A stretch of 30,255 nucleotides of DNA, taken from IMG/VR virus record IMGVR_UViG_3300024346_000352, positions 1 through 30,255 of that record. The stretch is one strand, 5' to 3'. The first letter of the stretch is position 1. The number at the start of each line of letters is the position of its first letter. The translations under genes and the position numbers were made by a program. This document shows positions 3,798-5,195 of this stretch, piece after piece. The stretch comes from a virus. The notes under the pieces are model-generated. The model worked only from the letters and a program-made list of their open reading frames with translations. It was not told the DNA's origin and did no database searches.

Positions 3798-4490
3798 TTA
3801 GGAAACTTGGAGCGTACAGGTCGGAGTTGCACCGCCCAGACTAGAGGGGTTCTCTAGTGCCTGCTCTTTTGCACGCTTCGGATAAGGTTTGCTTAAATGC
3901 ATTATAGACTGTTTTGTTTCTTTGTCCAATGCCATTAAATATCTATGTTTTCCCTTTGTATAAAATACAGTAGCGTTAGGGTCTAAATTTTTTCTTACTG
4001 CATCTATATTTTGCTTAACACCTTTACTGTGTACAGATTTAGGATGTGTTTTTTTACCATTGATAATAAAAGCACCCATACTACCTGCATTCATAAGACC
4101 ACTATAAACCCAATTAGTTGCTTGGTAGATTCCGCCATGATGGTTTTGGTCAGCATCAGCATAACTAACCACAAGTTTTAAACCTGTGTTGGCTTTTTTA
4201 AGAAACTTAATTGCTAATGCCATTATCTTACTTACTGGTGTTTTATGTTTTGTTAATGCTATACGTACTAACTCACAACCTTCATCTGCTTTTAAGCCAA
4301 ATGGTTTTAGCATATTGTTGTTAGCACCTCTACCGAATAAAACCACTCCGATAAACTTGCCATCTTCCCATGCACCAACTTTTACCAATTTGCCAACAGG
4401 TATAACACCACTATAATGCCAATTTTCACAAGCATACTTAGCCGCATCAAAACTAGCCCAATCTATTTTTAGTTTAGCATTCTTTGACAT
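3798..4490 (-). CDS. Mom-like adenine DNA modification protein
   Basis: A 230-residue protein of the phage Mu Mom family, which has a GNAT-like fold and converts adenine in phage DNA to N6-(acetamido)adenine, protecting it from host restriction. Visible support: CENWHYSG near residues 16-23; EL/VRIAL after the N-terminal sheet; and VSYADADQNHHGGIYQATNW around 109-128, the YAD...G.IYQA.NW.Y.G signature of the family. The last 25 residues (ENPSSLGGATPTCTLQVS end) do not look like the enzyme core and coincide with a tRNA-like sequence. The ATG overlaps the upstream 68-residue ORF by 17 nt. No zinc-finger Com regulator is present. Family assignment is from pattern recognition; activity is inferred. 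Confidence 0.82.
   Translation of the reverse strand: MSKNAKLKIDWASFDAAKYACENWHYSGVIPVGKLVKVGAWEDGKFIGVVLFGRGANNNMLKPFGLKADEGCELVRIALTKHKTPVSKIMALAIKFLKKANTGLKLVVSYADADQNHHGGIYQATNWVYSGLMNAGSMGAFIINGKKTHPKSVHSKGVKQNIDAVRKNLDPNATVFYTKGKHRYLMALDKETKQSIMHLSKPYPKRAKEQALENPSSLGGATPTCTLQVS
3808..3876 (-). other. tRNA-like sequence at the 3' end of the mom-like gene
   Basis: Read on the minus strand, GCGTGCA (3876-3870) pairs over 7 positions, with one G-U, with TGTACGC (3818-3812), which is followed by T and CCA exactly as in a tRNA 3' end. GGTGCAACTCC (3833-3823) matches the T-arm consensus GGTTCRANTCC at all but one position. A 7-bp perfect hairpin ACTAGAG/CTCTAGT (3858-3852, 3846-3840) stands where an anticodon arm would be. 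There is no D-arm, the loop lacks U33, and one extra base separates the T-stem and acceptor. It is therefore not a decoding tRNA, but a tRNA remnant, mimic or attachment-site core is plausible. Confidence 0.5.
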
Positions 4491-4680
4491 TTTGTACTAA
4501 TTCGCCCCATCTGCTTTTTAATGATTTTTTTGCTTGTTCTAATGTAGCGTTATCCATATTAATCATTCTTACTTTTTTGCCATTCATCTCAAATTCATAC
4601 TTGCGAATCTTAGAACCGCTTTTCTCAGTATCAAAACGACTTAATATGTTTTTGTTTTTTTGTTCATGGTTTAAAATCAT
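4474..4680 (-). CDS. 68-residue hypothetical protein overlapping the mom-like gene
   Basis: A small basic protein with a charged N terminus, a central beta-looking stretch (KYEFEMNGKKVRMINM) and a C-terminal helix (LEQAKKSLKSRWGELVQNV). It starts in a 4-nt ATGA overlap with the ParB-like gene, with an AGGGG ribosome site, and its end overlaps the Mom-like start by 17 nt. The overlap recalls the com-mom arrangement of phage Mu, but only one cysteine is present, so it is not a Com-type zinc finger. A role in expression or activity of the Mom-like protein is conceivable from position only. Confidence 0.7.
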   Translation of the reverse strand: MILNHEQKNKNILSRFDTEKSGSKIRKYEFEMNGKKVRMINMDNATLEQAKKSLKSRWGELVQNVKEC

Positions 4681-5195
4681 TCTACACCCCTCATATCAAA
4701 CTCTTTTCCACAATGTGGACAATCTATCCACTTAGGGTCAAGTTCATCTAACTGACCTTGCTCTTCTTCTGTAGCAGGGTCAAAATTAGGCTCAAATGTA
4801 TCTGTCAAGCTCTTAAGCATATCATCATCAAACCCAAGAACATCTAAATTAAATTCTAATTCTGTTAATCTGCTAACTTCAATTTTCAATGCATCTATAT
4901 CCCAGTCAGCATTTAATGCTAATTGGTTGTCAGCAATAACATAGGCTTTGCGCTGTGCCTCTGTAAGCCCCTCTAGCGTAATGGTAGGCACTTCACCGAG
5001 CTTTAGCTTTTGTGCCGCTAGAAGCCGACCATGCCCTGCTATTATGCTGTCTTGCTCATCTATCAATATGGGGTTAGTAAAACCAAACTCTTTAATACTA
5101 GAAGCCACCTGTTGAACCTGCTGTTCGCTGTGTGTTCTACTATTATTGACGTATGGTATTAACTCCCCAGTTTCCCTATAGTTTATTTTTAACAT
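4677..5195 (-). CDS. ParB/sulfiredoxin-fold nuclease-like protein
   Basis: A 172-residue protein with the ParB N-terminal domain: LIPYVNNSRTHSEQQVQQVA near 12-31, IKEFGFTNPILID near 34-46, and IIAGHGRLLAAQKL at 51-64, with the GHGR box at 54-57. YVIADNQLALNADWDI (85-100) is the usual extension of phage ParB-like proteins. Residues 159-162 form a single CPHC knuckle near the C terminus. In other phages this domain is often fused to, or encoded next to, DNA modification enzymes; here it sits two genes before the Mom-like gene. It has no HTH partition domain, so plasmid-style partition is unlikely. DNA binding or nucleotide hydrolysis is inferred. Confidence 0.8.
   Translation of the reverse strand: MLKINYRETGELIPYVNNSRTHSEQQVQQVASSIKEFGFTNPILIDEQDSIIAGHGRLLAAQKLKLGEVPTITLEGLTEAQRKAYVIADNQLALNADWDIDALKIEVSRLTELEFNLDVLGFDDDMLKSLTDTFEPNFDPATEEEQGQLDELDPKWIDCPHCGKEFDMRGVE

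Follow-up and report, generated by a model that had tools for sequence, protein, structure and literature searches.

The minus strand of a 30,255-nucleotide viral DNA record (IMGVR_UViG_3300024346_000352, positions 1-30,255; hereafter the window) carries, in this order, genes coding for a ParB-like protein (5195-4677), the DNA modification protein Mom (4490-3798), the terminase small subunit TerS (3795-3418), the terminase large subunit TerL and the portal protein. The 3' end of mom contains a 69-nucleotide element resembling a glycine transfer RNA (tRNA-Gly), which is the subject of this analysis. Mom is a 230-amino-acid protein predicted as a DNA modification enzyme of the GNAT fold. It matches the Mom family profile (Pfam PF25680, E 4e-47; phrog_1384) and the best structural match of its AlphaFold model is the Mom protein of phage Mu (8bv8, E 2.8e-10); by profile and by fold it is a member of the Mom family. 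Its residues 208-230 are encoded by the tRNA-like element together with the nucleotides downstream of it. The terS gene (phrog_309, E 4e-14) starts 2 nucleotides past the mom stop codon, and the element read in the mom frame gives the tail GGATPTCTLQ; both features had been correctly reported in a preliminary description of this DNA made from its sequence. Megablast of window positions 1-24000 against phages and blastn of the element region against plasmids gave no match.

The element occupies positions 3876-3808 of the minus strand and has no D-arm. The 5' strand of its acceptor stem, GCGUGCA (3876-3870), overlaps the Mom codons K-R-A and pairs with the 3' strand UGUACGC (3818-3812), which is followed by the discriminator base U73 (3811) and by an encoded CCA end (3810-3808). 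The motif CGCUCCA of this 3' end is invariant in 39 of 39 elements (alignment A2, see below). The T-arm (3836-3819, GGUGCAACUCC) has a stem of five base pairs with one bulged A and the loop UGCAACU; it agrees with the consensus GGUUCRANYCC at 10 of 11 positions, and all of its cells (100%) are paired in 21 relatives. The anticodon-like hairpin ACUAGA GAACCCC UCUAGU (3858-3840) has six stem pairs, all covarying, and its loop bases 34-36 read ACC (3850-3848), a glycine anticodon that follows the general pattern N-C-C. The segment that replaces the D-arm (3869-3859, AAAGAGCAGGC) contributes a helix of three base pairs in which 3863-3861 pair with 3839-3837 (RNAalifold columns 14-16 with 38-40) and which shows changes on both sides. 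The preliminary description had recognized the 7-bp acceptor-like stem, the near-consensus T-arm with its terminal CCA, a 7-bp hairpin at the position of the anticodon arm (3858-3852 with 3846-3840) and the absence of D-arm and U33, all of which hold. It had overlooked the N-C-C pattern of the loop, the covarying three-pair helix standing where the D-arm would be and the full-length tRNA-Gly versions of the element that occur in relatives.

The minimum-free-energy fold of positions 3890-3790 yields this three-way junction without constraints. Taken alone, the fold of the window sequence does not reach significance (z = -1.5; 16 of 200 shuffled sequences fold equally well). ARAGORN calls no tRNA at the element and an Rfam scan of the window at the gathering score finds no match. 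The elements of relatives L084, L099, L114 and others are callable by tRNA finders; in Rfam, only L114 among 16 related loci passes the tRNA cut-off. The metazoan-mitochondrial mode of ARAGORN, whose output is mostly noise, calls mtRNA-Gly(acc) on several relatives. A MAFFT alignment of all length classes (A2) misaligns the hairpins between classes and covariation was therefore counted only on 21 gap-free relatives of 69 nucleotides (A3). RNAalifold recovers on A3 the acceptor, anticodon-like and T arms plus the additional three-pair helix, with 98.7% of cells paired and changes on both sides in 15 of the 22 pairs. The covariation score is 0.567, compared to 0.179 +/- 0.018 in shuffled alignments (0 of 500 as high) and to 0.12 or less when pairing partners are slid. 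The acceptor and hairpin stems, whose covariation had been proposed as a check in the preliminary description, both covary in the 21 relatives. Within the acceptor stem the pairs G1-C72, C2-G71 and G3-C70 are invariant and pairs 4-7 covary freely. The covariance model R1 derived from A3 has 3808-3876 as its sole match in the 30-kb window (90.8 bits, E 1.7e-21) and gives 52 matches to E = 1 across 82 sources (320 kb), located at the mom locus. The window element has the acceptor stem, T-arm, anticodon arm and CCA end of a tRNA, and lacks the D-arm and U33 of a canonical tRNA gene, as well as recognition by tRNA finders.

What is conserved at this position is, on comparative grounds, the nucleic-acid element and not the protein tail. 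Most of 65 Mom relatives taken from IMG/VR have the Mom core in common as far as K-P-Y-P-K-R, after which their tails diverge, and the three tails GGATPTCTLQ, RRGSTDLHAP and VQHRPSRSN are the same nucleotides read in three frames. In some relatives the stop codon precedes the element or falls inside it. Across 86 same-strand 3' elements the phases of the 3' end are distributed 43/32/11, and the open frame passes through the element in 73, ends inside it in 8 and ends before it in 5. Among in-frame relatives the tail shows no codon-position signal (21.5, 22.6 and 22.5% differences, versus 45, 38 and 61% in the core). The AlphaFold model of the window protein is confident for the core and predicts residues 208-230 as disordered (pLDDT below 50). 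It is this combination of reading in three frames or after a stop codon, missing codon periodicity, covariation and predicted disorder that assigns the conservation to the nucleic acid. The preliminary description held that relatives with the same protein tail and lost base pairing would speak for a chance resemblance; the opposite was found, pairing being kept with three different tails.

As judged from sequence matches, the element lies beside about two thirds of the sampled mom genes, in several bacterial phyla. A relaxed identity-aware detector, complemented by covariance-model matches and cases read by eye, finds it with ~102 of 148 distinct Moms, a count that is evidence of presence only because GC, U73 and CC are built into the detector. 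About 10 of the assignments (L026, L042, L134, L146, L185, L193, L194, L203, L207 and L218) were made with the covariance model, with ARAGORN or by eye. Since a home-made descriptor gives many chance matches at lower scores, statistics were drawn only from a strict cloverleaf search blind to anticodon and discriminator. This search yields 59 matches beside 147 distinct Moms (0.40 per kb) versus 13 matches in the 938 kb away from mom at the same loci (0.014 per kb). A second survey covered 80 Mom loci, where 13 of 14 tRNAs called by ARAGORN are tRNA-Gly, all at the mom end. Several elements are ordinary tRNA-Gly genes, and a tRNA-Gly annotated by the depositors adjoins mom in Microbacterium phages Phonegingi and Bush and in Salinibacter phage B2_17. 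The linkage was also followed in reverse, with two DNA patterns lying wholly within the element that retrieved 189 IMG/VR contigs. A Mom is encoded within 800 nucleotides in 180 of them, immediately 5' of the element in 174; six contigs have insufficient sequence and three have no nearby Mom, so that 180 of 183 assessable contigs (98%) carry the pair. On this comparative evidence, the structure of the element and its linkage to mom are firm.

The arrangement of the two partners varies. Among the 102 elements, 94 are found 3' of mom in sense orientation, seven are sense and 5' of mom (all in Chloroflexota) and one is antisense and 3' (a Microbacterium phage). In the Microbacterium phage loci L082 (2651-2725), L087 (2666-2740) and L166 (2160-2234), in all three on the minus strand, a complete tRNA-Gly whose CCA is encoded lies antisense to mom, ~33 nucleotides past the mom stop codon. 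In the Chloroflexota loci L213 and L216-L221 the element is close to the matched Mom start, and farther away in L218. The Bacteroidota loci L193 (818-891) and L194 (2119-2191) have mom followed by a nearly canonical tRNA-Gly whose anticodon loop is altered and which ARAGORN reports as tRNA-???. In Arthrobacter phages the element stays with mom and is followed by a helix-turn-helix gene and a sliding clamp gene, the terminase genes not being adjacent. Cyanophage S-SSM7 (L239, 341-655) has a cluster of tRNA-Ile, tRNA-Thr, tRNA-Arg and tRNA-Leu just before mom, with no tRNA-Gly in it.

Bacterial glycyl-tRNA synthetase (GlyRS) recognizes its substrate through the first base pairs, U73, C35 and C36, determinants established by crystallography and mutagenesis whose effects amount to 105-1500-fold for C35, 21-41-fold for C36, 11-43-fold for pair 1 and 5-10-fold for pair 2 (PMC9908026). 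The aligned elements carry this tRNA-Gly identity set, G1-C72, C2-G71, G3-C70, U73, C35 and C36. In the first 38 distinct elements read, U73, CCA, GCG/CGC ends and CC at positions 35-36 are present without exception, L026 and L042 fitting only after their hairpin register was corrected by eye. Their loop triplets are ACC, UCC and CCC, with GCC in one that has a 6-nucleotide loop. Near distinct Moms, the search blind to anticodon and discriminator finds C35C36 in 55 and U73 in 58 of its 59 matches; of the four non-CC matches, three represent the same kind of element in a shifted register and the fourth is a tRNA of another isotype from phage S-SSM7. U33 is present in just 34 of 83 elements, anticodon loops have 6 or 8 nucleotides in 10 of 93, still with CC, and a D-arm is found in 7 of 49 short forms and 32 of 44 long forms. 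Because the bases of GlyRS identity are kept while features needed by the ribosome are not, the element looks selected for glycine charging and not for decoding. It is likely that it descends from a complete tRNA-Gly gene.

These comparisons among sequences show that the RNA has a conserved structure, is tightly linked to mom genes and keeps the bases read by bacterial GlyRS. The base made in Mu, characterised in 1983, is alpha-N-(purin-6-yl)glycinamide (Swinton 1983, as cited in PMC3874153). As only the features for glycine charging are kept and the element accompanies a glycinamide-forming enzyme, the simplest reading is that it supplies Mom with glycine. It is probable that the element is a dedicated non-decoding glycine carrier, charged by the host GlyRS and used by Mom as donor. 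That this host-charged RNA is a dedicated cofactor from which Mom moves glycine to adenine of the phage DNA, a tRNA-dependent DNA hypermodification, also appears fairly probable. The host GlyRS would attach glycine to the CCA end while the element is still part of the mom transcript or once tRNA-processing nucleases have freed it. Because the 5' strand of the acceptor overlaps the last core codons in the window and in close relatives, any one transcript there would be either a message for Mom or, once cut, a carrier. Mom, as a GNAT-fold transferase, would then take glycine from the Gly-RNA rather than from an acyl-coenzyme A (acyl-CoA) and place it on the exocyclic amine (N6) of adenine in phage DNA, leading to a glycinamide base of the Mu type. 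The N6-glycyl adduct could rearrange to the N6-CH2-CONH2 (carbamoylmethyl) form. Moms lacking the element, e.g. in Mu, would depend on a different donor, of which host Gly-tRNA is the simplest.

Several points weigh against the donor role. In the literature an acyl-CoA 'such as glycyl-CoA' has been proposed as donor (PMC7824862), and the folds nearest to the window Mom model after 8bv8 are CoA-dependent GNATs (acetyltransferases). No element is found near 46 of the 148 distinct Moms, Mu's included, so that it is not required by every Mom. Finally, a few contigs have the element next to a different modification-type gene, and no Mom was found in the vicinity. On the Mom tree the element is missing from the Mu group, other distant phage Moms, the phiEf11/Paenibacillus/Lysinibacillus group, Yersinia-type prophages and Pseudonocardiaceae, and the label of presence or absence changes 13 times, versus ~47 times when shuffled. 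From this distribution, the element is a widespread yet dispensable partner that was lost or never gained in some groups. A full-text literature search combining Mom with glycyl-tRNA or tRNA-like found nothing relevant; preprints and most subscription papers were outside its scope and the donor was possibly reported elsewhere.

In four related IMG/VR contigs (L432, 1230-1305; L433, 3647-3721; L434, 2768-2824; L435, 3656-3730) the element is downstream of a PF22559 'GNAT-phage-like' gene and no Mom was detected. A ParB-like gene separates the PF22559 gene from the element where this region was read (L291/L432). A second GNAT family, PF22559, may use the same kind of RNA. In L308, and in L271, a gene for a C5-cytosine DNA methyltransferase is immediately followed by the element, which is at reverse-strand position 7355 in L308; a ParB-like gene is present upstream and a terminase-like frame downstream, and no Mom was found on the contig.

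Other explanations of the element account for part of these data. It might serve regulation or RNA processing, being bound by GlyRS or cut by nucleases to limit a toxic Mom or to separate mom from the terminase mRNA. The location within the mom mRNA in most relatives would fit such a function, as would the tight regulation of Mu mom and its toxicity when overexpressed (PMC4461284). The position on the opposite strand in Microbacterium phages, past the stop codon in some relatives and 5' of mom in Chloroflexota does not, and regulation alone leaves unexplained both the glycine specificity and the ordinary tRNA-Gly genes found at the same place; this role is considered unlikely. A phage tRNA that aids glycine decoding and neighbours mom by chance is very unlikely. 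Some members are indeed called by ARAGORN as tRNA-Gly (UCC or CCC), but most of the short forms have no D-arm, most lack U33, some have loops of 6 or 8 nucleotides and many read ACC. Furthermore, no other isotype occurs at the mom 3' end in the surveyed mom sets and the element is nearly absent away from mom. Host defences that inactivate tRNA-Gly, such as the toxSAS FaRel2 or GNAT toxins of the TacT type, could favour a decoy or replacement tRNA-Gly, and such enzymes recognize tRNA-Gly through its acceptor stem or through whether it is charged (PMC11559606, PMC9241777). Neither near-exclusive linkage to mom nor the keeping of CC at 35-36 where the loop does not decode would be expected of a decoy, and such a function is most unlikely here.

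The preliminary description had offered three interpretations, of which the tRNA mimic in the mRNA is the one supported: a conserved, covarying tRNA-like fold is present in the mom mRNA of most relatives. Its second proposal was the captured 3' end of a tRNA gene, marking an old attachment site. Phages often integrate into tRNA genes and the 3' half of the element is tRNA-like. However, the element has kept the two strands of the acceptor stem together with the anticodon arm and the CCA, which covary, and it accompanies mom in many unrelated phages, so that this origin has an extremely low probability. No integrase was detected among those ORFs of the window that were put through family searches, which did not cover every ORF. 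The third proposal, a pac-like structure recognized by TerS, was rejected since the element remains linked to mom where the terminase genes are not adjacent, as in the Arthrobacter phages, and in Chloroflexota occurs on the 5' side of mom. Chance resemblance or a conserved protein tail might be invoked from the single-sequence folding z-score of just -1.5, but the three frames, the absence of codon periodicity, the covariation and covariance-model matches found only beside mom reduce its probability to a negligible level.

The element shares with bacterial tRNA-Gly the invariant G1-C72, C2-G71 and G3-C70 pairs, U73, C35, C36 and the CCA end (PMC9908026), and differs from it in the window by the lack of D-arm and U33, ACC at the anticodon position, the helix replacing the D-arm and the location inside a protein gene. 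Mu Mom has the same family and fold as the window Mom (PF25680, 8bv8) and its product is an adenine-N6 glycinamide. No tRNA-like element is found near Mu mom, and the donor proposed there is an acyl-CoA. In staphylococci, a non-proteinogenic tRNA-Gly serves FemX/A/B, non-ribosomal transferases with a GNAT-like fold whose product is cell wall. The likeness is that of a tRNA-Gly dedicated to such a transferase; the staphylococcal one is a separate cellular gene with a cloverleaf, whereas here the RNA is linked to the gene of the enzyme and the presumed target is DNA. The 3' tRNA-like structures of plant viruses end the genomic RNAs of RNA viruses. They resemble the element as aminoacylatable-looking folds inside a longer RNA, while the fold described here ends one gene of a DNA phage and has glycine identity. 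D-armless metazoan mitochondrial tRNAs likewise show that the tRNA shape can function without a D-arm, in mitochondrial translation and with mitochondrial synthetases (according to a reference in PMC9908026). The GNAT toxins TacT and AtaT provide the parallel of a GNAT fold acting on charged Gly-tRNA; they differ in acetylating the aminoacyl-tRNA and are not known to target DNA.

If the element does donate glycine to Mom, aminoacyl-tRNA chemistry would extend to DNA bases, with a tRNA shape retained for charging and released from decoding, and the missing donor of Mom would become biochemically testable. The donor role aside, the element defined here is a widespread RNA whose D-armless form is absent from Rfam and which explains odd phage 'tRNA-Gly' genes and protein tails in annotations; what would then remain new is a tRNA-like RNA family.

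The Firmicutes Mom group without tRNA-like element (L179-L182 and L088) appears by eye to have another conserved structured region within ~200 nucleotides past the mom stop codon, consisting of a hairpin and then GGGTATCCCCCGGCTGAGATAGCGG..CCACGCG..CCGCTATCTCG. Upstream of mom in the window, the ParB-like gene (4677-5195, minus strand) belongs to PF02195 and phrog_620. A gene of this kind also directly precedes mom in phiEf11, Wyborn and Microbacterium phages (loci including L082, L084, L087 and L088), and its recurrence at this place in several unrelated phages suggests that the ParB-like protein is a functional partner of Mom.
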